Of a stretch of 64,000 nucleotides of DNA, positions 1-33,121 are shown piece by piece (within the stretch, counting starts at the first letter, position 1; the number at the start of each line of letters is the position of its first letter). Made by a program: the position numbers and the translations under genes. Source of the DNA: Candidatus Acetatifactor stercoripullorum (GTDB lineage Bacteria; Bacillota; Clostridia; Lachnospirales; Lachnospiraceae); NCBI GenBank assembly GCA_019114005.1, contig DXGH01000003.1, forward strand, positions 1 through 64,000, given 5' to 3'. The notes under the pieces were generated by a model. That model was not told where the DNA came from and made no database searches. It saw only the letters and a list, made by a program, of their open reading frames with translations.

Positions 1-972
1 ATCCTCCACAGCAATGTCAAGCCCCTGCCCATAGCCGTCGCTGCAGCTCTTTTTCAGAAACCCGAAGAAGCTTCTTTCTTCTTTTGTGAGAAGCAGGCTT
101 TCTTCCCTTTCAACAAAATCGCTGAGAATCCCGATGGGATTGACGCATTTTTCAGGAGCGGCCGCATGTCCGCCAATACCCTTGGCTGTAAGGTGCAGCT
201 TTCCGTCCCGGTATTTAACAGTCATATTTCCAGAAAGCTCTCCCCAGGCGGCCTTCTCTCCCAGTCCTTTTGCCGGGAAGCTCTCCTGCTGTCCCCGCAA
301 TACCAGCCTTGCCGTATCTGCAACACTGTTGGACACCAGTCCAGCCCCGATGGCTTCTATGTGGGGCAGCTCTCCTTCATAAAAAAACTTCATCCGGCAC
401 CGGCCCTTTTCCCCATAGCAGAGAGGAAATCTGCAGTCCGAAACAACTGCCAGCTTCGGCGATCCATATTGCTTTACATACCAGGCCGCATCCTCCATTC
501 CTGTCTCTTCGCTCAGGCCGCACACCTGGCTTAACTGGTAATGCAGCCGAATTCCCCTTTCCCTTAAATACCGAAGGGCATACAGTACGGCCACTGCCGG
601 CCCCTTATTGTCCGACACTCCCCGTCCGATGAGAAAGTCCCCCTTTAAGGTGCATTCATAGGGCGGATAAACCCAGCCTTCCCCTTCCGGCACCACGTCC
701 AGATGATTCCATATCTCGATCCTATCAGGAGAAAGCCCCTCCGCCTTCTCATATTGAATCCTTACACATCTTCCGCCGCAGTCCTCAGTCCAAAAGCCGT
801 ATTTCTCCGCCATCTGGCGCATACGCTCCCCCGCTCTTTTGCATTCCCTCCCAAAGGGAAAATCCTCTGCAGACGACGTTTTCTCCCTGGCCTTTGCCAC
901 ACTGGGAATTTCCACCAGGCTTTTTATATCCTCTATCATTTCCGCCTTATGGCGGGCAATCCAATCCTCCAT
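1..972 (-). CDS. M20 family metallopeptidase (PepV-like dipeptidase), C-terminus beyond left edge
   Basis: The minus-strand frame is open from an ATG at 972 to the window edge (324 codons). It carries the M20 zinc-peptidase landmarks: NHLDVVPEG (first zinc His plus catalytic Asp), GRGVSDNKGP (bridging Asp), LSEETG (Glu pair) and DCRFPLCYGEKG. In this family these residues hold two zinc ions that hydrolyse dipeptides or N-acyl amino acids in the cytosol. It starts 4 bp after the stop of a sugar permease gene, so it is the last visible gene of the ABC operon; the link to sugar uptake is inferred from position only. The order of motifs fits PepV/Sap-type dipeptidases better than carboxypeptidase G2 types. 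Confidence 0.85.
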   Translation of the reverse strand, partial: MEDWIARHKAEMIEDIKSLVEIPSVAKAREKTSSAEDFPFGRECKRAGERMRQMAEKYGFWTEDCGGRCVRIQYEKAEGLSPDRIEIWNHLDVVPEGEGWVYPPYECTLKGDFLIGRGVSDNKGPAVAVLYALRYLRERGIRLHYQLSQVCGLSEETGMEDAAWYVKQYGSPKLAVVSDCRFPLCYGEKGRCRMKFFYEGELPHIEAIGAGLVSNSVADTARLVLRGQQESFPAKGLGEKAAWGELSGNMTVKYRDGKLHLTAKGIGGHAAAPEKCVNPIGILSDFVEREESLLLTKEERSFFGFLKKSCSDGYGQGLDIAVED

Positions 973-976
973 AGCG

Positions 977-1822
977 TTACCCCTTTATCCCCGACGAGGC
1001 GATGCCCTCCACCAGATACTTCTGCAGCAGTATAAAAATCACTAAAAGAGGCAGAATCGACAATATGGACATGGCAAACATAGCGCCGTAATCGGAGGTG
1101 GAGGCCGGATCACAAAACAGCTTGAGAGCAAGGCTCACAGGATACCGTTCCGATTTATTCACGTACAAAAGAGGTCCTAAAAAGTCCTCCCAGCGCCAGA
1201 TGAAGGAAAAAATTCCGCCCGTAATCAGCGCAGGCTTCATTAACGGCAGCACAATTCTGAAAAATATGGAATAATAGGAGCAGCCGTCAATTTTCGCCGC
1301 CTCATCCAAATCAGAGGGAAGTCCGTTTATAAAATTCATCATCAGATAGATAAAAAATCCCTGGGTCGCAAAGCAGTAAGGGACAATCATGGGAAGATAG
1401 GTTCCCACCCACCCAAGCTTCTGGTACCATAAATATTGTGGAATCATTAAAATCTGTGCCGGAAGCATCATGGACACCAGCATGGCACAAAACAAAATCT
1501 TTCTGCCTCTAAATCTGCACCGGGCAAAGCTGTAGGCCACAAAAGCCGAAGAAATCAGCGTGCCTATGGTGGCAGTCACTGCGATAAAGGCCGAATTTTT
1601 AAAGAAGGTGCCAAAGCTTACCTTTGCAAAGCCCCGCCAGCCATTTACATAATTTTCTGTCACAAATTCTCTGGGAATCAGCTCTCCCGCCGTGTTGAAA
1701 ATGGTATCCGTATCCTTAAAGGAGCTGAAAAACATCCAAAGCAGCGGATAGATCATCACAAAGGCGCCCAGGGCTACGAATACATGATAAAAAACAGTTT
1801 TAATCCTCTTTTTCCTTTTCAT
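977..1822 (-). CDS. carbohydrate ABC transporter permease (MalG/UgpE type)
   Basis: A 281-residue polytopic protein with about six hydrophobic segments. The cytoplasmic EAA loop typical of binding-protein-dependent sugar permeases reads LDEAAKIDGCSYYSIFFRIVL near residues 170-190. The N-terminus (MKRKKRIKTVFYHVFVALG) is a basic tail followed by the first membrane helix. It begins directly after the stop codon of the partner permease (1823), so the two are translationally coupled. It should form the inner-membrane channel with that partner and the lipoprotein encoded upstream. No ATPase gene is present; this is normal for this class, which often shares an MsmK-type ATPase encoded elsewhere. 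Confidence 0.93.
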   Translation of the reverse strand: MKRKKRIKTVFYHVFVALGAFVMIYPLLWMFFSSFKDTDTIFNTAGELIPREFVTENYVNGWRGFAKVSFGTFFKNSAFIAVTATIGTLISSAFVAYSFARCRFRGRKILFCAMLVSMMLPAQILMIPQYLWYQKLGWVGTYLPMIVPYCFATQGFFIYLMMNFINGLPSDLDEAAKIDGCSYYSIFFRIVLPLMKPALITGGIFSFIWRWEDFLGPLLYVNKSERYPVSLALKLFCDPASTSDYGAMFAMSILSILPLLVIFILLQKYLVEGIASSGIKG

Positions 1823-23560: not shown

Positions 23561-24877
23561 CTATTCCACCACCTTATCCGCATACTTGATCCGGTAAATC
23601 CTTCTTAAGGAATCATTGATACGCTCCTCGGAAATGGTGCCCTCCTGCACCGCCTGCAGCACACCATTATAGGCGGTTTCAAAATCCTCCGGCATCAGCA
23701 GCATATCGCAGCCGGCCCGGAGTGCCAGCACAGCTGCCTCATCTGCTGAATAATACTGGGAAATGGCAGACATGTTCAAGGCGTCCGTGATAATAACGCC
23801 ATCATAATTCATCTCATTTCGCAGAATATCCGTCACCACAGCCTGGGAAAGAGAACAGGGCGTATTGTCTCCGGTTAAGGACGGCGCAGCCACATGTCCC
23901 ACCATAATCATTTCCGCCCCGGCGTCAATTCCGGCCTGGAACACGGTAAACTCCTGTGCCCTGAATTCCTCTGCGCTTCTGTCCGTAACGGCCAGTCCGT
24001 CATGGGTATCCTGAACTGAGCTTCCGATTCCCGGAAAATGCTTCAGACACGCAGTGACATTCTGCTCCGAAAGCCCCTGCATCATGGATGTCACAAACTG
24101 GGATACAGAAGCTGCGTCCGAACCGTAGGAGCGGCCCTCCATGACGCTGTTTTCCACATTTGCCAGATCTGCAACCGGCGCGAAATCAAGGTTAAAGCCA
24201 AACTCCGACAAATAGCCTCCTATGGTAACTCCCGCCTGATAGGCGTTGTTGGGATCGCCGCTCTCTCCTATGGTCTGGGCGGAATCCACCGTCTGGCCAA
24301 GTCCGGCGTCCGCCACCCGTGCCACGCTTCCGCCCTCCTCATCCACAGCAATAAACAGCGGATACTTGGTATAAAGCAGTGTGTTGTCAATCATCTGGCT
24401 TAACTGCTCCCCCGACTGTATATTTTTGCTGAAGTAAATCAGTCCGCCCACCGCATATTGTGCCAAAGCCTCCTGGGTTCCCTCCCCGGCCTGCACTGCG
24501 GCTGACACTCCTGTGATGGCCTCCGGCTCCACAAGAAACAGTCCTGCCACCTTATCCTCCAGGGGCATTACTTCTATCCCTGCATTTACGATTTCATCCA
24601 GCTTCTGCTCGGCGCTCATCTCCTCCACAGTCTCTGCAGGCTCCTGCACCTGTATGGTTTCCTCGGAGGCAAATATTTCCTCCACCCTGGACTGATTATC
24701 CGCAGCCGCCTCCTTCTGCCTGCTGTTCCCGGCAAGAAAGCGCACCAGAAACACAATGCCGGCAGCCACTGCTGCAATCATTAAAATCAATACTATGTAT
24801 GCGGCAATCTGGTTCCTCTGACGCCTTTTTCTGCGCTCTTCTCTTCTGTCTAGCTGTGTCTGATTCTTTTGTTCCAT
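23561..24877 (-). CDS. glycoside hydrolase family 3, NagZ-like beta-N-acetylhexosaminidase, membrane-anchored
   Basis: A 438-residue protein. A basic N-terminus and one membrane helix (AAYIVLILMIAAVAAGIVFL) place the enzyme domain outside. The GH3 domain shows FIAVDEEGGSVARV, KHFPGIGSSVQDTHDG (the Asp-His acid/base dyad) and GVIITDALNMSAIS (nucleophile Asp). These mark the NagZ subgroup, which releases beta-linked N-acetylglucosamine; other GH3 specificities cannot be excluded. Of two in-frame ATGs (24883, 24877) the second is preferred because GGAGG lies 6 nt upstream. It heads the GH3-GH115-GH42-NYN operon. Confidence 0.85.
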   Translation of the reverse strand: MEQKNQTQLDRREERRKRRQRNQIAAYIVLILMIAAVAAGIVFLVRFLAGNSRQKEAAADNQSRVEEIFASEETIQVQEPAETVEEMSAEQKLDEIVNAGIEVMPLEDKVAGLFLVEPEAITGVSAAVQAGEGTQEALAQYAVGGLIYFSKNIQSGEQLSQMIDNTLLYTKYPLFIAVDEEGGSVARVADAGLGQTVDSAQTIGESGDPNNAYQAGVTIGGYLSEFGFNLDFAPVADLANVENSVMEGRSYGSDAASVSQFVTSMMQGLSEQNVTACLKHFPGIGSSVQDTHDGLAVTDRSAEEFRAQEFTVFQAGIDAGAEMIMVGHVAAPSLTGDNTPCSLSQAVVTDILRNEMNYDGVIITDALNMSAISQYYSADEAAVLALRAGCDMLLMPEDFETAYNGVLQAVQEGTISEERINDSLRRIYRIKYADKVVE

Positions 24878-24913
24878 GGCCATCCTCCAAATAAGCTTTC
24901 TCTCGTCCAGAAC

Positions 24914-24964: not shown

Positions 24965-26719
24965 CTACATTCTGAAAATTACCAGATTCTCCTTCAGCTG
25001 GTCCGCAAGTCCGGTAAGCTCCTTGGAAGAAGCCTCCAGCCCGCCCATGGTATCGCTGACGCCCTGTACCGTCTCCATAGTGTCTCCGGCAAAGGACGCG
25101 GTCTGCCCGGATATCTGGGCAAGGCCTCCCACTGCGGTGCGGATGGCTGCCCCGAAGCCTCCCAGCTCATCTATACTCTTTTTGATCCCTTCTATATGGG
25201 TAAAGGAATTTTCTACCCCCCGGGAAACTGCGGCATACTGCTTTTTTGTATCCTCAAGCTTTTCCTGCTGGCGCTCCATGCTGGAAGTAACCTGCCCCAT
25301 GATCTCCACCATCCGCTGAGAGGTCTTTAAAATTTCTTCCACCATCTGCTCAATTTCCCTGGCGGAGCTGTTTGACTGATCTGCCAGCCTGCATATCTGC
25401 TCCGCAACCACACCGAAGCCTCTGCCTGATTCTCCCGCACGGGCGGCCTCGATGCTGGCATTCAAGGACAAAAGGTCTGTCTCCTCCGCAATAGAGCGTA
25501 TCATTCCCACCGCCGCATTAATGCTCTGCACAGATTTATTCATGGCTGTGATCTGCTCTGCCGCTCCCTGGACAAAATCCCTTGTGTCCGCGTTGTATGC
25601 GCTCAGCTCATTGATATTTTTTTCAGATTCCTTTTCCGCCTGGTTCATCTGTCCGGCGTATCCTGCAAGGGAATCCACCTCCTCCGTGATTTTGGCAATC
25701 TGCTCCCCGATCTTAATCACATTGTCGTTTGCTTCTGCCGTCCCCTCTGCCTGGGTCTTTGCCCCCGACGCGATTTCTCCCACGGCTCCTAAAACGCCGC
25801 CCACGGCGCTCTGGGTGGTCTGCGCCATATCTGTCAGCTTATCTGCGGAAAGGACTAAATTATCTGTGGATTCCTTTATATTGTTTACAATATCATATAA
25901 CGCCTGCCTTAAGCGCACGCAGATCCGGTAGATGTCTCCCAGCTCGTCCTTCTTCTGAAGCAGCCTGGCATCCGGCTGCGCATCCAGCTCTCCCTTCATG
26001 ATCCTTACAAGATATCCCTTGATTTTCTGCATGGCGGAAACCATTCTTCTGGACAGAACCATCACAAGCGCCGCCGCTATGACCACAAAAACCAGAGAAA
26101 AGACCACCATCTGCAGAATCTGTCCGTCTATCAGCTCCCTGACTGCAGAGGCCTCCATGGCGGCTTCCACCGCTCCGATGACAGAGCCGTCCGAATTGAC
26201 CAGAGGCTGATAATAGACATAATATTCCCGCCCGCTGATCTCAGAATCCTTTAAAAACAACACCTGTCCCTCTCTGATTTGGGCATACTGCTCGGACGCA
26301 ATCCCCGTTCCATTGACCCTGGAGCCGTTTTCATTCTGGATGGTGGTGATGAGTCTCATATTGTCAAAAAAAAGCGAGACCTCAAAGCCTGTCTTTTCCT
26401 TCAGGCCGTCGATCAGCTGCGTGTCGCCTGAAATGGTCGCATCCCCCTTTGTGACCCTTCCGCTCTGGCCCTTCTTGTAATCCCCCTCATACAGATTTGT
26501 ATAAGTCTCGTTTACGCTGGCAGCCACAATCTGCAGCGATTTCTCAATTTCCCCCTCGATTCCCGTCTGGAGCGCTCTGGCACTGTAAACCGTGATTACA
26601 ACGCACAGCACCAGCATAGGTATCTGGCAAAGCGCTACCAGCTTTTTGGAAAAGGTAAGAAAACGTTTTCTTTTCACTTTTCCCTTAACAACAGTTTCCT
26701 TCGGTTTTTTTCCTTTCAC
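24965..26719 (-). CDS. methyl-accepting chemotaxis protein with dCache-like sensor
   Basis: A 584-residue transmembrane chemoreceptor. The first helix is at about residues 28-52. An extracytoplasmic sensor of roughly 150 residues contains the single-Cache-like phrase [26 protein letters not shown]. The second helix is near 205-225, followed by HAMP. The signalling tip reads [32 protein letters not shown]. The start is GTG with GAGGG 6 nt upstream. It should signal through CheA/CheW encoded elsewhere. The ligand is unknown, although a sugar from the neighbouring glycosidase operon is possible. Confidence 0.92.
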
Positions 26720-27026
26720 CTTTATCCCTCTTTTCTTTATAAAACTTGGAGCACGTCCTTTGAATTTTATATTTTATACAAATTTCGCAAGGTTTTTTTT
26801 GCAAAATCTGTACAAAATCCCCCAATCTTCAAAAGGCGCGCTTGTAATAGACAAGGGTATTGTATCATTATTACACAAAATGTTCAATGTTTAAGATTGC
26901 ACAGAAATCCGGCATATCATTAACATGTACAGTATATAATTCCTGACATCATTCGCAAATACAATATATTTATATATTGACAATACAGTGTGCCGTACAG
27001 TATAATGCCATCAGGAGGTGACGCTG
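26720..27026. other. divergent intergenic region, AT-rich
   Basis: About 300 bp between the chemoreceptor and the PadR gene without a credible gene. It is AT-rich and carries two similar GTACAGTATA(TA)AT boxes (26927-26940 and 26995-27006), the second overlapping the PadR -10. Confidence 0.6.
26977..27006 (+). promoter_or_regulatory. promoter of the padR-HAAS operon with a possible PadR operator
   Basis: TTGACA (26977-26982) and TATAAT (27001-27006) are 18 bp apart. The spacer contains TACAGT repeated with a 12-bp period (TACAGTGTGCCGTACAGT), a plausible site for autoregulation by PadR. Confidence 0.75.
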
Positions 27027-27371
27027 ATGGGAGAAGAAAAAGATTTATTATCCACCTTGCTTTTGGAGCTTCGCAGAGGAACGCTGACAATCAGTGTACT
27101 CAGTCAGATGAAGGAGCCGAAATATGGATACGCTTTGGTGCAGAGTCTGGAAGAAAAAGGCGTTGCCATTGATCCCAACACCTTGTACCCTCTCCTTCGC
27201 CGACTGGAGAATCAGGGGCTTTTGGAAAGCAAGTGGGAAACCGGCGGTGCAAAACCGAGAAAATATTATCAGCGGACAGAATACGGAACGGAAATTTATG
27301 AGAAGCTGAAAGCATATTGGCAGAATTTATCCGCTGGAATGGAGCGGCTGTTAAGGGAGGAAGAAGCATGA
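27027..27371 (+). CDS. PadR family transcriptional regulator
   Basis: A 114-residue winged-helix protein. It has the PadR signature LTISVLSQMKEPKYGYALVQSLEEKGVAIDPNTLYPLLRRLENQGLLES, then the wing and a short C-terminal dimer helix. The frame can start at a GTG (27018), but the ATG at 27027 is preferred with AGGAGG 8 nt upstream. PadR proteins usually repress the neighbouring membrane-protein gene in response to small hydrophobic compounds or cell-envelope stress. The next gene overlaps by 4 bp (ATGA). Confidence 0.93.
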   Translation: MGEEKDLLSTLLLELRRGTLTISVLSQMKEPKYGYALVQSLEEKGVAIDPNTLYPLLRRLENQGLLESKWETGGAKPRKYYQRTEYGTEIYEKLKAYWQNLSAGMERLLREEEA

Positions 27372-28477
27372 CACCAAATGAAAAAGACTATATGGATCGA
27401 TATATTTATCAGGTAATCCGTCGGCTTCCAAAAGCTCAAAGAGATGAAGTGCGTATGGAACTGGAAGAGCTGATCAGCGATATGTATACGGATAAGGGCT
27501 CTATGGAAGAGGTGCTGACTGAGCTTGGCGATCCTGCTGAATTTGCCAAACAATATCAGAGCGATCAAAGATATCTGATTGGGCCGGAATATTTTGACAC
27601 CTATCTGTGGTTTGTCAGGGTGGTTTTCATCTGCACTGCCATACCAATTTTGGGGATTTCTCTGATAAATGCCATAGGAGAAATGCCCGCGGTTACTTCC
27701 CAGAGCGCTGCCCCTGTTATTATCCGCGCTATTGTCAGCGGTCTGACTGCCGGGATTACGGATGCTCTCCTGTCCTGTGTGACCGCATTCGGTGCAGTGA
27801 CCTTGACTTTCGCCATCATGGAGAGAAAAAAGATTCAGTTAGAGATGAAGAAAGCGGAAAAGTGGTCGGTAAAAAGTCTGTCAGAGGAAAAGAAAACAGC
27901 GGCCTTTCGGTGGACGCCAAAATTTTTGGAGCCTGTGCCCGATAAAAAAGCGATGATAAGTCGAGGCGACAGCATTGCAGGCATTGTGTTTATCGTTATT
28001 TTCAGTGTATTGCTGATTTTTGCCCCCAATTTCTTTGCTGCGTTCTTTACGGAAGGCGAAACCGTAACCACCGTACCCGTTTTCAATCTGGAGCAATGGG
28101 GAATCGTTCTTCCCGCCTTTATACTAAGTCTGCTGATCGGTCTTGCAGACGAGATATTACGCCTGATTGTCGGGGTCTACTGCAGCCTGGTAATGATCAG
28201 CAATATAGTGTGCGGGGTGCTTCAAATTCTGCTTGGCATTGTTGTGCTGAAGGTTTTACCCATTTGGAATCCGAATTTTGCGCTTGAACTTGAGATGGCA
28301 TTGGGCGATAAAGCAGATTCCGGCGCCAGATTCCTCACTTACTGGAATGCTGATATGGTATCCAATGGACTTCTTACATTTATTGTTGCGATTACCCTGT
28401 TTGAAATAGGTGCAACAATATACAAGACACTCCGTTACGGTGTTTCCATACGAAATGAGAAGAATCTTGGGGCGTAG
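27368..28477 (+). CDS. HAAS/DUF1700-type domain membrane protein, partner of PadR
   Basis: A 369-residue protein. The N-terminal about 75 residues (MDRYIYQVIRRLPKAQRDEVRMELEELI... LTELGDPAEFAKQY) are the HAAS helical domain that typically partners PadR regulators. Four to five membrane helices follow. The ATG at 27368 overlaps the padR stop by 4 bp, which indicates translational coupling. Members are thought to act as membrane co-regulators or anti-sigma-like proteins; what this one senses is unknown. Confidence 0.82.
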   Translation: MTPNEKDYMDRYIYQVIRRLPKAQRDEVRMELEELISDMYTDKGSMEEVLTELGDPAEFAKQYQSDQRYLIGPEYFDTYLWFVRVVFICTAIPILGISLINAIGEMPAVTSQSAAPVIIRAIVSGLTAGITDALLSCVTAFGAVTLTFAIMERKKIQLEMKKAEKWSVKSLSEEKKTAAFRWTPKFLEPVPDKKAMISRGDSIAGIVFIVIFSVLLIFAPNFFAAFFTEGETVTTVPVFNLEQWGIVLPAFILSLLIGLADEILRLIVGVYCSLVMISNIVCGVLQILLGIVVLKVLPIWNPNFALELEMALGDKADSGARFLTYWNADMVSNGLLTFIVAITLFEIGATIYKTLRYGVSIRNEKNLGA

Positions 28478-28517
28478 ACAAAACCCCTGAAAAATGTACG
28501 ATCAGCGCAAAACTCGT

Positions 28518-28545
28518 TTGATTTTTTGTAAATATGTGCTATAAT
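28518..28545 (+). promoter_or_regulatory. promoter of the AAA/DUF4143 ATPase gene
   Basis: TTGATT (28518-28523) and TATAAT (28540-28545) are 16 bp apart, 28 bp upstream of the start codon. Confidence 0.7.
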
Positions 28546-28573
28546 ACGGTTAGAATTTTTGAGAGGTGATGGC

Positions 28574-29878
28574 ATGTATCGTACTGTCATGGAGCAGCTG
28601 CAAAAATGGAAAGAAAAAAAGCATCGAAAGCCGCTTGTTATTCGCGGCGCCCGCCAGGTAGGAAAAACCTGGCTCATGAAAGCCTTTGGTGCTGCTGAAT
28701 ACGAATCTACAGTTTATATCAATTTTGACAATAATGAACGGATGCGTAATTTGTTCAAGGGGAGCCTTGCGGCAGATCGACTGGTGACAGGTTTAGAACT
28801 CTATGCGGGGCATAAGATTGACCCATCTAATACCCTTCTGATTTTCGACGAGGTGCAAGAAGTGCCGACTGCGTTGACCAGTCTCAAGTACTTCAATGAG
28901 GACGCACCTCAATATCAAATCATCTGTGCCGGTAGTCTATTGGGTGTTGCACTGCATCAGGGGACCTCGTTTCCCGTTGGAAAGGTGGAGTTTCTTGATC
29001 TTTATCCACTCTCCTTCTCCGAATTTCTCATTGCTATGGGGAAGGAGCGCTATGTAGAACTGCTGCGGCAGGGCGATTTTGACATGGCCACCATGTTTAA
29101 GCAGGATTATTCCGATCTGCTGAAGCAGTACTACTATGTAGGCGGTATGCCGGAAGTCGTCCAGGCTTTTGCAGACAATCAGGACTTCAATGAGGTTCGG
29201 GAAATTCAACAGCGCATTCTGTCCGCTTATGAACAGGACTTCTCCAAGCATGCTCCCAATGAAACGGTGCCTCGTGTGCGTATGTTGTGGAACAGCATCC
29301 CGGCCCAGCTTGCAAAAGAGAATAAGAAGTTTATCTATGGTCTCATCAAAGAAGGGGCTCGGGCGAAGGAGTATGAGCTGGCAATGCTCTGGCTGACGGA
29401 TTGCGGACTTGTCCACAAGGTACATCGAGTTTCCGCCCCCAGTTTACCGTTAAAGGCCTATGAGGATTTGAAGGCATTCAAACTGTTTCTGCTGGATGTG
29501 GGCCTTTTGTCCTGCATGGTGGGCCTGCGACAGGATGTGCTGCTGGATGGGAATGATCTGTTTAAGGAATTCAAGGGAGCACTAACAGAGCAGTATGTCC
29601 TACAGCAGCTTAAAACTATCAAGGGGCTGAATATCTACTATTGGACTGCAGATCGTGGAACTGCGGAAGTGGATTTTGTCATCGACAACGGTAAAGATGT
29701 GATTCCAATTGAGGTCAAAGCCGAGGTTAATCTCCAGGCCAAGAGTTTGAAAGTTTACCGTGAGAAATTCCAGCCACGGCTGTCCATTCGCACATCCATG
29801 GCAGACTATAAAAAAGAAGACTGGCTGCTGAATCTACCGCTGTGGGCAATAAATACTAAGTTTGGGGAAGGAGGATAA
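28574..29878 (+). CDS. ATP-binding protein of the AAA_14/DUF4143 family
   Basis: A 434-residue ATPase. Walker A is GARQVGKTWLMK, Walker B is LLIFDEVQEVP, and a sensor-like CAGSLLGVAL follows. The C-terminal DUF4143 domain ends with GTAEVDFVIDNGKDVIPIEVKAEVN, a nuclease-like (PD-(D/E)XK-resembling) motif set seen in the family. Such proteins are common, often horizontally shared, and largely of unknown role. The ATG at 28574 is preferred over an in-frame TTG at 28559 because GAGAGGTG lies just upstream. It has its own promoter and stands alone. Confidence 0.9.
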   Translation: MYRTVMEQLQKWKEKKHRKPLVIRGARQVGKTWLMKAFGAAEYESTVYINFDNNERMRNLFKGSLAADRLVTGLELYAGHKIDPSNTLLIFDEVQEVPTALTSLKYFNEDAPQYQIICAGSLLGVALHQGTSFPVGKVEFLDLYPLSFSEFLIAMGKERYVELLRQGDFDMATMFKQDYSDLLKQYYYVGGMPEVVQAFADNQDFNEVREIQQRILSAYEQDFSKHAPNETVPRVRMLWNSIPAQLAKENKKFIYGLIKEGARAKEYELAMLWLTDCGLVHKVHRVSAPSLPLKAYEDLKAFKLFLLDVGLLSCMVGLRQDVLLDGNDLFKEFKGALTEQYVLQQLKTIKGLNIYYWTADRGTAEVDFVIDNGKDVIPIEVKAEVNLQAKSLKVYREKFQPRLSIRTSMADYKKEDWLLNLPLWAINTKFGEGG

Positions 29879-29907
29879 TAAGAAGGAAAGGTCGTACTAT
29901 GCTTTGC

Positions 29908-29950
29908 ACAATAAAAGAGCGTATCGATTATCTTTCAATCAATACGCTCT
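29908..29950 (-). terminator. intrinsic terminator, minus strand
   Basis: A 14-bp stem with one C-A mismatch pairs 29916-29929 with 29937-29950 around a 7-nt loop. On the minus strand it is followed by TTTTATTG. On the plus strand no T-run follows, so it ends a minus-strand transcript rather than the ATPase gene. Confidence 0.8.
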
Positions 29951-30278
29951 CTCAGACTACTGTATCCAAGGGACCTTCCTCCATTTTCTTTCTTCCATTT
30001 CTTCTTTTGTTCTCTTTCCACTTCTCTTTTGTACTAGCGTACTGTAACGTCCAATGTCTTTCTTCTTTTGCGATTCGTTACCTTTTCTTCTGTGTACTTG
30101 ATTTTTCTTTTCTTTTGTTCCTTATTCATTTGTACATCAATGGAAGAATATTTTTAATTTATATGATACATAAAATTATGTGTTAGGTGGACCGTACCTC
30201 CTTTGCTTAGATTTTTTTACAGCTTTTCTTTGCTGTTCAGCCTTCCTCTGCTGTTTTCTTTTTCTCTTTTCTTTTGTT
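29911..30278 (-). ncRNA. candidate small RNA (or small-peptide transcript) of about 370 nt
   Basis: A consensus promoter at 30285-30313 and a strong terminator at 29908-29950 define a minus-strand transcript with no recognisable gene. The RNA is purine-rich (many AAAGAAAAG-like runs). It has short hairpins near its 5' end (ACAGC/GCTGT at about 30235-30219) and an AAGGAGGT whose 3' part can pair with a nearby ACCT. The only ATG peptide of note is a 31-residue basic one (30034-30129, 13 Lys/Arg, starting MNKEQKKRKIKY) without a clear ribosome binding site. It matches no RNA family I can recall. Existence as a transcript is well supported by signals; function is unknown. Confidence 0.5.
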
Positions 30279-30284
30279 GATTTT

Positions 30285-30313
30285 ATTATAGTCTATGCCT
30301 CTACATTTGTCAA
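30285..30313 (-). promoter_or_regulatory. consensus sigma-A promoter of the orphan transcript
   Basis: Minus-strand TTGACA (30308-30313) and TATAAT (30285-30290) are exact consensus with the ideal 17-bp spacer. No protein gene follows. Confidence 0.85.
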
Positions 30314-30443
30314 CATATTTCTTTAAAAACTTATCTATTTTTTCATTATTCGCATTTTGTATTTATTCATTTACATTTTTCGACAATTTTCCCAATATTT
30401 TCTGTATTTTACCTCTGGAATGCTCTTTCTCTATTTACAGAAA

Positions 30444-30507
30444 ATGCTCTAAGCAGCTGCTTTATAAACCATGGCAGAAACCATGATCCAAAAGCTGCTT
30501 AGAGCAT
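30444..30507 (-). terminator. long inverted repeat, probable terminator of the lysC operon
   Basis: A perfect 15-bp inverted repeat (30444-30458 with 30493-30507, ATGCTCTAAGCAGCT) encloses 34 nt that contain a second small hairpin (CATGG/CCATG). On the minus strand the stem is followed by TTTTCTG, a weak T-run, placing it as a terminator 30 bp downstream of lysC. Confidence 0.6.
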
Positions 30508-30536
30508 ATACCTACGAATTGAAAATGAGGCTTTCC

Positions 30537-31856
30537 CTACAGCCTGGTGGTTACAAAAATATCATAAATTGCTTTGATGGCAGTTTCAAAATCCTTATTA
30601 TCCACACCGATAATAATGTTCAGCTCCGAGGAGCCCTGATCGATCATCTTCACGTTTACATTGCCGTGGGCCAAAGCGGAGAAAATTCTCCCTGCGGTTC
30701 CCCGGGTGGACTTCATCCCCCGTCCCACTACAGCAATCAGTGCAAGATCGGACTCAATATCAATGGAATCCGGGTTTACCACTCTATGCAGTCCGGCTAC
30801 CACCTTCTGCTCCTTGTGGGCAAATTCATCCTGATGCACAAACACCGTCAGCGTGTCGATACCCGAGGGAACATGCTCAAAGGAGATACCGTTTTCCTCA
30901 AATATCTGCAGAACCTTTCTCCCGAATCCGATTTCGGAATTCATCATATCCTTTTCAATATTGATGGAGCAAAAGCCCTTCTTTCCGGCGATGCCCGTTA
31001 TCACATATCTGGATTTCTGACAGGTGCTCTCCACAATCCAGGTGCCTTCATCCTCCGGCGCGTTGGTGTTTCGTATGTTGATGGGAATTCCTTCCTGACG
31101 AACCGGGAAAATGGCCTCCTCGTGAAGCACAGTAGCTCCCATATAGGCAAGCTCCCGAAGCTCTCTGTAGGTAATCACCTCGATGGCCTGTGGATTTTCA
31201 ATGATTCTGGGGTCCGCCACAAGAAAGCCAGACACATCTGTCCAATTTTCATAGGCGTCGGCCTTTACCGCCTTCGCCACGATGGAGCCGGTGATGTCCG
31301 AGCCTCCTCTGGAAAAGGTTTTCACCCTGCCGTCCGGCATGGAGCCGTAAAATCCGGGAATCACCGCCCGCTCAACGCCCGCCAGTCTTTCAGACAGGAC
31401 TTTGTTGGTAGTATCCGCGTCAAATTCCCCATTTTCCTTAAAAAAGATCACTTCCGCCGCATCTATAAATTCATAGCCCAAATAATCCGCCATAATGATG
31501 CCGTTTAAGTACTCTCCCCTGGAAGCCGCATAGTTGCTGCCCGCTCCGGCGTTAAAGTTCTTTTCAATAGTCAAAAACTCCTCTTTTAAAGAAAGCTTAA
31601 GCTTAAGTCCCTGGATAATCTCCTGATATCTGGCCTCGATGGCCCGCAGCTGCTCCTTAAATTCTTTCCCCGAAGAAGCCAGATCATAACAGGCGTAAAG
31701 CATATCCGTCACCTTCACATCCTTGTCAAACCGTTTGCCGGGTGCGGAGGGAACCACATATCTCCGCTCCTGGTCCGCCCGGATAATGCTGCCCGCCTTC
31801 TGAAACTGTTCTGCGCTCGCCAGGGAGCTTCCGCCGAATTTTACTACCTTTGCCAT
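30537..31856 (-). CDS. lysC: aspartate kinase with C-terminal ACT domains
   Basis: A 439-residue enzyme. The catalytic N-terminus has VVKFGGSSLASAEQFQKAG. Later motifs are TFSRGGSDITGSIVA and ENWTDVSGFLVADPRII, and the ACT region includes GKKGFCSINIEKDM and LALIAVVGRGM. It phosphorylates aspartate at the entry to the lysine, threonine and methionine pathways; the ACT domains bind end products. Two in-frame ATGs exist; the one at 31856 has GAGGAG 9 nt upstream and is preferred over 31862. It is last in the ACT-hom-apgM-lysC operon, which argues for feedback by threonine, though this cannot be read directly. Confidence 0.95.
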   Translation of the reverse strand: MAKVVKFGGSSLASAEQFQKAGSIIRADQERRYVVPSAPGKRFDKDVKVTDMLYACYDLASSGKEFKEQLRAIEARYQEIIQGLKLKLSLKEEFLTIEKNFNAGAGSNYAASRGEYLNGIIMADYLGYEFIDAAEVIFFKENGEFDADTTNKVLSERLAGVERAVIPGFYGSMPDGRVKTFSRGGSDITGSIVAKAVKADAYENWTDVSGFLVADPRIIENPQAIEVITYRELRELAYMGATVLHEEAIFPVRQEGIPINIRNTNAPEDEGTWIVESTCQKSRYVITGIAGKKGFCSINIEKDMMNSEIGFGRKVLQIFEENGISFEHVPSGIDTLTVFVHQDEFAHKEQKVVAGLHRVVNPDSIDIESDLALIAVVGRGMKSTRGTAGRIFSALAHGNVNVKMIDQGSSELNIIIGVDNKDFETAIKAIYDIFVTTRL

Positions 31857-31918
31857 TTTCATTTACTCCTCGTTATCTCTTGATATTCTCAGCTTTCCAA
31901 GCTATCTTCCACATCTTT

Positions 31919-33121
31919 TCAAAGGCCTAAGAAATAATCCATAAGCAGATGCCCCTCTGCAATCCGGTTCCCGCTCTTTAAGCCTTCCTCTTCATTATAA
32001 TCCCAGTCATGGCGTTCGGGCTTTGTGCTGTCGTACAGCATATAGGGCACATCCTCTGCCGTATGTGTGCGCAGCCGGATAGGCGTAGGATGATCCGGAA
32101 GCAGAAGCAGGCGAAAATCCTCCCCGGCCGCCTCCATTTTTTCCACAACAGGGCCCACCACCCGCTCATCCAGGTATTCGATGGCCAAAACCTTTCGCTC
32201 CACGCTTCCCTGATGTCCCATCTCGTCGGGGGCCTCCACATGAATGTAGGCAAAATCATAGCCCTCCTGTGTAAGGGCTTTTACCGCCGCCTCCACCTTT
32301 CCGGCATAGTTGGTATGAAGGCCTCCGTTTGCCCCCTCCACCAAAGCGACGCCCATGCCTGCTCCCACGGCAATCCCCTTTAACAGATCTACCGCAGAAA
32401 CCATCATCCCTCTCTTACCGGTCTTTTCCTGAAAGGAGGAAAGCATGGGTTTGGTTCCAGCCCCCCAGAACCAGCAGCAGTTTGCCGGGTTTAAGCCCTT
32501 TTTCTTCCGCTCTATGTTGATAGGATGATTCACCAGGATATCATAACTTTTCTCCATCATTTCCCGAAGGGCCTTATCCTGGGGCAGATACGCTCCGATC
32601 ACCTGTCCCAGCACATCATGGGGCGGAGTCAGCTCCACCACCTGTCCCTGCTTCCAGATCAGGCAGTGCCTGTAGCTTGTTCCCACATAAAAGCGGTAGA
32701 TATCATTCCCCAGCTGCCTGGCTGCCGCCTCAAGCAGCACGCTGCATTCCTCTGTGCTGATTTCCGAAGCGCTGTGGTCGATAATAACCCGCTTTTCAAA
32801 TGGACCCTCCTCCTCGGAAAGAGTCACAATATTACAGCGAAGGGCAATGTCCGTATCCTCCATGGGCACGCCGATGCTCAGCGCCTCAAGGGGCGAACGC
32901 CCGGAATAATAGATTTTGGGGTCATATCCCAATACGGAAAGATTGGCTGTGTCGGAGCCCGGCTTCATGCCGTCGGGAATGGTATGCACCATGCCGATCT
33001 CCGAAAGCTTGCTCAGGCGGTCCATATTGGGGGTTTTCGCATAGGCCAGAGGCGTTTTTTCCCCCAGCTCCTCTATGGGCTCATCAGCCATGCCGTCGCC
33101 CAGCACTACAACATATTTCAT
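31919..33121 (-). CDS. apgM-like phosphoglycerate mutase family protein, probable homoserine kinase
   Basis: A 400-residue alkaline-phosphatase-superfamily protein. It begins MKYVVVLGDGMADEPIEELG and has KPGSDTANLSVLGYDP (catalytic nucleophile region), PFEKRVIIDHSASEIS, CCWFWGAGTKPML and the metal motif HVEAPDEMGHQG. The family is archaeal-type cofactor-independent phosphoglycerate mutase. A subgroup next to threonine genes is annotated as a proposed homoserine kinase (TIGR02535). Here it lies directly between homoserine dehydrogenase and aspartate kinase, and no GHMP-type thrB is in the window, so homoserine kinase is the better guess. The ATG at 33121 has AGGAGG upstream and follows the hom stop. 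Confidence 0.85.
   Translation of the reverse strand: MKYVVVLGDGMADEPIEELGEKTPLAYAKTPNMDRLSKLSEIGMVHTIPDGMKPGSDTANLSVLGYDPKIYYSGRSPLEALSIGVPMEDTDIALRCNIVTLSEEEGPFEKRVIIDHSASEISTEECSVLLEAAARQLGNDIYRFYVGTSYRHCLIWKQGQVVELTPPHDVLGQVIGAYLPQDKALREMMEKSYDILVNHPINIERKKKGLNPANCCWFWGAGTKPMLSSFQEKTGKRGMMVSAVDLLKGIAVGAGMGVALVEGANGGLHTNYAGKVEAAVKALTQEGYDFAYIHVEAPDEMGHQGSVERKVLAIEYLDERVVGPVVEKMEAAGEDFRLLLLPDHPTPIRLRTHTAEDVPYMLYDSTKPERHDWDYNEEEGLKSGNRIAEGHLLMDYFLGL

Follow-up and report, generated by a model that had tools for sequence, protein, structure and literature searches.

The rRNA-encoded E-peptide and the products of other pentapeptide minigenes are thought to act on the same ribosome that made them, and a C-terminal valine is common in the minigene peptides that have been selected. 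Reading frames are also borne by dual-function small RNAs such as SR1/SR1P (PMC8501984) and VcdRP (PMC8672173), which are reported to encode small proteins, that of VcdRP having 29 residues. Another group of described systems is formed by the uORF transcription attenuators, to which the ilvB and fthC motifs (PMC11109978) and the hflX motif uORFC-6-1 (PMC8632094) belong. For Clostridium phytofermentans, a further report (PMC5171806) mentions an unannotated strong transcript downstream of cphy2658, which resembles the locus described here in being a noncoding-looking unit in a Lachnospiraceae genome and is taken as a lead only. In this report, we analyze a locus from Candidatus Acetatifactor stercoripullorum, for which comparison with related loci shows a predicted RNA with a strong promoter, a structured body whose ends are joined in a long-range helix, and a 3'-end that consists of a Shine-Dalgarno (SD) sequence, a five-codon frame, and a hairpin.

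The window, by which we mean the whole stretch of 64,000 nucleotides that was analyzed, was found to carry on its minus strand an exact TTGACA-N17-TATAAT promoter (30313..30285) and, about 370 nt later, a hairpin (29954..29912), as had been noted in a preliminary description of this DNA. The promoter is of the sigma-A type, agrees with the consensus at 12 of 12 letters, and was the single match of this quality in a promoter scan of 27000..33000. Using a loose pattern, an upstream TTGAC-type promoter was identified in 102 of 108 related loci. The positions of the promoter and the hairpin, with the start estimated from the –10 box, predict an RNA of approximately 368 nt (29911..30278, minus strand). 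The folding energy of 29908..30280, terminal hairpin included, was determined to be –72.7 kcal/mol (z = –5.3), which is better than that of all 100 shuffled copies.

The terminal hairpin (29912..29954, minus strand) is terminator-like, and its base is located at the stop codon of the five-codon frame. Up to 19 pairs can be formed in the window when wobble pairs are counted, and 12 of the 15 consensus pairs show changes on both sides among 27 sequences. In the relatives, the tail behind the hairpin is rich in T (6.9 per 13 positions vs a background of 3.6; 108 loci). With the promoter kept, the hairpin pairs co-varying, and the tail T-rich in relatives, the arrangement is, as judged from these sequence comparisons, not a product of chance. 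The hairpin had originally been called a strong terminator that works in one direction. The directionality agrees with the sequence, where the reverse direction has no T-run, but the strength was somewhat overstated: the T-run in the window is short (TTTTA), and the hairpin was absent from the output of a simple terminator scan. The 3'-end of the RNA is uncertain because the longest T-run is merely 1–3 in 57 of the 108 loci.

The statement that no gene lies between promoter and terminator was wrong in one respect, since it missed a conserved five-codon frame (29969..29952, minus strand). This frame reads TTG-GAT-ACA-GTA-GTC-TGA and would specify fMet-Asp-Thr-Val-Val; its length is kept among relatives, and its start and stop codons vary in type. 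Ahead of the start codon is element E2 (29970..29982, minus strand), which contains the SD sequence GGAGG and a CC pair that is invariant in 27 of 27 sequences. The order of elements before the hairpin in related RNAs is SD, CC pair, and start codon, and of the 107 loci (among 108) in which an SD was found, 100 have a spacing of 7–9 nt. In the 108 distinct loci, which were counted without regard to phylogeny and for which the better-scoring family loci were fetched, the frame was found to contain five codons in 102, six in 5, and four in 1. This count began with 134 loci, from which 12 duplicates were removed together with 14 that failed a filter for a start codon, SD, CC, and hairpin; copies without a start codon go uncounted. 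Among those that failed, five codons were present in L020–L023, L026, L028, L220, and L245 and also in L053, L081, and L213, six codons were present in L014 and L253, and L257 was a false match. When 38 family places were read singly (the better-scoring ones, which for the most part belong to the 108 loci as well), 35 had five codons and 3 had six.

The start codon is TTG in 66 of the 108 loci, ATG in 40, and GTG in 2. The stop codons in the 107 loci with five or six codons are TGA (43), TAG (40), and TAA (24). A pattern that permits TGG at the stop position gave at least 120 stretches, and all 120 were examined; one of them (L174) is on a contig that ends before the SD. Because this pattern fixes most of MDSIV, its result is usable for the stop-codon count alone: the 119 stretches with a hairpin have TAG in 57 cases, TGA in 31, TAA in 31, and TGG in none. 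The combination GG at stop positions 2 and 3 was observed in 0 of 102 frames vs about 15 of 102 expected under independence, a statistic that ignores relatedness. Shuffling of the alignment columns gave five-codon frames in 85 of 102 cases on average and in 92 at most, compared with the 102 observed. From these comparisons we strongly infer that ribosomes translate the five-codon frame.

A 31-residue basic peptide had been offered earlier as the longest product of the transcript. That frame does exist, with 13 Lys/Arg residues, but it is not conserved, and each of the 21 aligned RNAs has a different longest frame; in L005 there is a frame of 59 codons with a start similar to that of the 31-codon frame of the window. 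Even with a narrow SD pattern, the five-codon frame and an SD were recognized together in 16 of the 21 RNAs. The proposal of a small-peptide message can thus be retained for a five-codon message set against the terminator and not for the 31-residue peptide.

An acidic residue (Asp or Glu) occupies position 2 in 98 of the 102 five-codon frames and Val occupies position 5 in 74, and residues 3 and 4 vary widely across species. At codon 3, AGY was found 39 times vs 0 for AGR, and GAR was found 16 times vs 0 for GAY. Over codons 2–5, Lys and Arg together account for 6 of 408 positions vs 24% in frames that occur by chance in these A-rich RNAs, and Asp and Glu together account for 138 of 408 vs 13%. 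This residue bias points to selection on the decoded sequence. The codon biases could partly reflect constraints at the level of the RNA, as codon 4 has a purine at its third position in 99 of 102 frames. Counted from the first base of the start codon, the hairpin starts after 14–19 nt, which is about as far as a bacterial ribosome reaches at its leading edge during initiation. The distance from start codon to hairpin seems to be the quantity that is kept, because it is held at 16–19 nt in the six-codon frames, where the stop codon slides toward or into the stem.

The body of the RNA is closed by the long-range helix P1, in which the 5'-strand TTCTTCCATT (30139..30148, minus strand) pairs with the 3'-strand AATGGAAGAA (29990..29999, minus strand). 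This helix joins CUUCCAU with AUGGAAG, a pair that is represented elsewhere by AUCCAUAU with AUAUGGAU, and an equivalent helix was found in 20 of 21 RNAs. The mean score for P1 in the 21 RNAs is 12.6 vs 7.5 with the 5'-part shuffled (40 shuffles per RNA). No shuffle equaled the observed score in 9 of the RNAs, and the support for P1 rests on the whole set because 1–5 of the 40 shuffles did so in the other 12. Helix P2 was predicted by RNAalifold from 21 sequences and consists of GUAACG (30076..30081) and CGUUAC (30044..30049), both on the minus strand. A possible hairpin P3 (30031..30042, minus strand) was recognized by eye as GTAC-loop-GTAC, with GTAT/ATAC in L008 and L023. The internal helices of L021 and L026 seem, by eye, to be replaced, with repeats of a GUACAAAAGA-like motif in their place in L021; both RNAs retain the promoter, frame, and hairpin. 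An antiterminator formed between the SD and the 3'-arm of the terminal hairpin was considered and set aside; by eye, it is possible in some members of the genus and not with other hairpin sequences.

Element E1 (30186..30204, minus strand) was identified by motif match as AAAGGAGGT-ACGGTCC-ACC and is SD-like without a start codon; its first part, AAAGGAGGT, had been pointed out before and is indeed present at 30204..30196. At most 72 of 138 loci have an upstream match to an E1-like motif, and a few of these matches are clearly due to chance. In some relatives E1 has a start codon, and the frame closes after 2–6 codons where up to about nine were allowed. Short forms of the RNA (L025, L168, L169, and the second copy in L234) have the promoter, the two SD elements, the frame, and the hairpin and are without the long body. 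The 3'-module is the constant core, because these short forms keep it while losing the body. The two copies in L234 form a tandem pair (330..1000), the second of which is a short form that has a promoter of its own and would encode the peptide MDNPV.

When 61 genomes were searched at the DNA level, matches were obtained in 33, most of which belong to the genus of the window. In 16 of the 29 other loci from this search (L027, L029, and L030 looked spurious and were left out) the match has lysC as a neighbor, an arrangement shared with the window. Within the genus, a model of the 3'-end, R1, gave matches in 109 of 138 genomes and in 56 of the 66 good ones. The RNA is not essential everywhere, because 29 of the 138 genomes, 10 of the good ones among them, gave no match. 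In a sample of the family Lachnospiraceae, R1 matched 140 of 397 genomes and 119 of 334 genera; in a sample of the order, with a stricter limit, it matched 16 of 246, of which 14 are within the family. Among the matches listed for the pattern that permits TGG (80 named records), most are labeled Lachnospiraceae, for example Acetatifactor, Eisenbergiella, Roseburia, and Lachnoclostridium, and some are labeled Blautia, Eubacterium, Clostridiales, Bacillota, or bacterium. One alphaproteobacterium record (L130) is a chance match without the hairpin. Two weak matches were obtained elsewhere in the order, outside the family: in L257 the frame continues for a long distance and probably represents the start of a protein, and L258 (601..676), from a different family, may be a real four-codon version, MDDR. 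No match to the RNA was found by blastn in plasmids and phages, and when viral contigs were scanned with a pattern, both matches obtained were antisense inside long frames, without an SD and with no hairpin visible by eye; a mobile element was rejected as an explanation. These comparisons indicate that the locus is a conserved small RNA gene common to many members of the Lachnospiraceae, a mostly gut-dwelling family.

Rfam 15 at the gathering cutoff gave nothing at the RNA, the sole match in the window being a tRNA elsewhere, and when 29880..30540 was searched by E-value, two weak matches to microRNA models were obtained at 30435..30517, upstream of the RNA. The single match to 6S RNA (RF00013) in this genome is on another contig, C64, and none is located here. 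No description of the RNA was found in the literature covered, which excludes most subscription journals. The preliminary description had stated that the transcript fits no RNA family and had set conservation in relatives as a test; the promoter, the terminal hairpin, and the internal helices were all found to be kept, which together with the Rfam result supports a transcription unit of its own that belongs to no Rfam family.

Upstream of the RNA is lysC (30537..31862, minus strand), an aspartate kinase with the Pfam domains AA_kinase and ACT, which was found no more than 4 kb upstream in 53 of 161 loci. The end of lysC is followed by a long inverted repeat and a short T-run (30446..30510; ATGCTCTAAGCAGC...GCTGCTTAGAGCAT), probably the lysC terminator. 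On the other side, 71 of 138 loci have nagZ, encoding a GH3 enzyme, downstream of the RNA and in the same orientation. A crude gene caller assigned the next downstream frame in the 138 loci as nagZ in 65, convergent in 46 (in at least 6 of which a spurious antisense frame precedes nagZ), another same-strand frame in 22, and none in 5. In the window, the nagZ-like gene (23561..24883, minus strand; Pfam Glyco_hydro_3) is displaced, and the interval between it and the RNA (24965..29878) contains genes for a DUF4143 AAA ATPase, an HAAS-domain protein, and a chemotaxis receptor, with a PadR-like gene (named by eye) adjoining the HAAS-domain gene. This interval looks like an insertion because nagZ directly follows the RNA in many relatives.

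The reading that we favor, with confidence and doubt about evenly balanced, is that of a stand-alone structured small RNA of the Lachnospiraceae with a ribosome-engaging five-codon minigene at its 3'-end, the nascent pentapeptide of which would act on its own ribosome. The RNA would be made constitutively and terminate at the hairpin. Ribosomes would load at the 3'-end of the RNA, translate the five codons, and leave at the base of the hairpin. The length of the frame may be set such that an initiating ribosome just touches the hairpin, and the finished RNA would bear a ribosome dock at its 3'-end. The pentapeptide, which passes from acidic to hydrophobic, may tune the stalling, termination, or departure of its own ribosome, with control of the stability or activity of the RNA, or an effect on the ribosome itself, as possible consequences. 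The RNA would act on its own and not as the leader of a single gene. An effect of the nascent pentapeptide in cis on the ribosome is favored because it would explain why the length is fixed as well as why the residues are biased. More tentatively, at somewhat less than even confidence, the locus may belong to an undescribed class of RNA, distributed across a major family of gut bacteria, with a ribosome dock as its working part, in which a five-codon gene that abuts a hairpin and is fitted in length to an initiating ribosome would allow the RNA to hold, sense, or condition ribosomes.

The arrangement could alternatively be a cis-acting leader, in which translation of the five codons opens the terminator so that transcription reaches nagZ. 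The same-strand nagZ genes and the contact of the stop codon with the hairpin are in its favor, and ribosomes in E. coli repress terminators just behind a gene, as stated in one study (PMC4824070). The same study, however, describes a terminator 30 bp past the AUG that stayed mostly efficient, translation having cut its efficiency by about 10%, and for this reason termination at the present hairpin need not be disturbed. The window, where promoter, frame, and hairpin are intact, and many relatives have no nagZ following the RNA, and a promoter-like motif is located ahead of nagZ in 27 of the 71 linked loci. As a general function the leader is quite unlikely, with room for a role in cis in the copies that precede nagZ, which are about half. 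It is also rather unlikely that the released pentapeptide is itself the product, a signal or effector from a five-codon gene. The constraints on its residues (AGY or GAR at codon 3, avoidance of Lys and Arg, and the frequent terminal Val) would fit such a role, but residues 3 and 4 differ widely among species, and a formylated pentapeptide would probably not escape degradation once free. Among the neighbors listed, no receptor or peptidase family was recognized as recurrent, and a family that by eye resembles ABC transporters is encoded no more than 4 kb away in 14 of 161 loci, at no fixed place.

A small RNA of the ordinary base-pairing or structural type, for which ribosome binding at the 3'-end merely guards against decay and the peptide is irrelevant, would account for the conserved helices of the body and could pair through its purine-rich single-stranded stretches with pyrimidine-rich targets. 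It leaves unexplained the amino acid bias and the retention of the 3'-module in the short forms that have no body, and we consider it improbable. The suggestion of a protein-binding sponge, taken as one of the CsrA type, found no support from co-occurrence. Several GGA motifs can be read in the RNA and CsrA was found in 104 of the 138 genomes of the genus, but 15 of the 20 listed genomes among the 34 without CsrA by search keep the RNA, which is about the overall rate, and very little credence can be given to such a sponge. The genome of the window has three csrA-like genes (contigs C30, C32, and C47), and relatives within the genus have up to six.

If the favored reading of a ribosome-engaging minigene is correct, a five-codon gene, matched in 119 of the 334 sampled genera (part of the matches read singly), is invisible to gene finders, and RNAs that are supposedly noncoding can bear a translated module the size of a ribosome. 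To our knowledge, a conserved five-codon gene would rank among the shortest conserved reading frames. The locus resembles 6S RNA in being a stand-alone RNA of a few hundred nucleotides. With the dual-function small RNAs it shares a reading frame on a small RNA and, on the evidence of sequence, its own promoter and terminator, with a T-run that is often short; it differs in that the frame has five codons at the extreme 3'-end, with fixed length and distance to the hairpin. The uORF attenuators are similar in that a short frame with a conserved start and stop and an SD is located ahead of a terminator-like hairpin. They precede one consistent main gene, however, whereas the downstream context here varies and no codirectional gene follows consistently, and the antiterminator of ilvB has no counterpart that could be seen consistently by eye. 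The E-peptide minigenes have in common with this locus a five-codon frame with an SD, and the difference is that residues 2 and 3 are mostly acidic or polar here.
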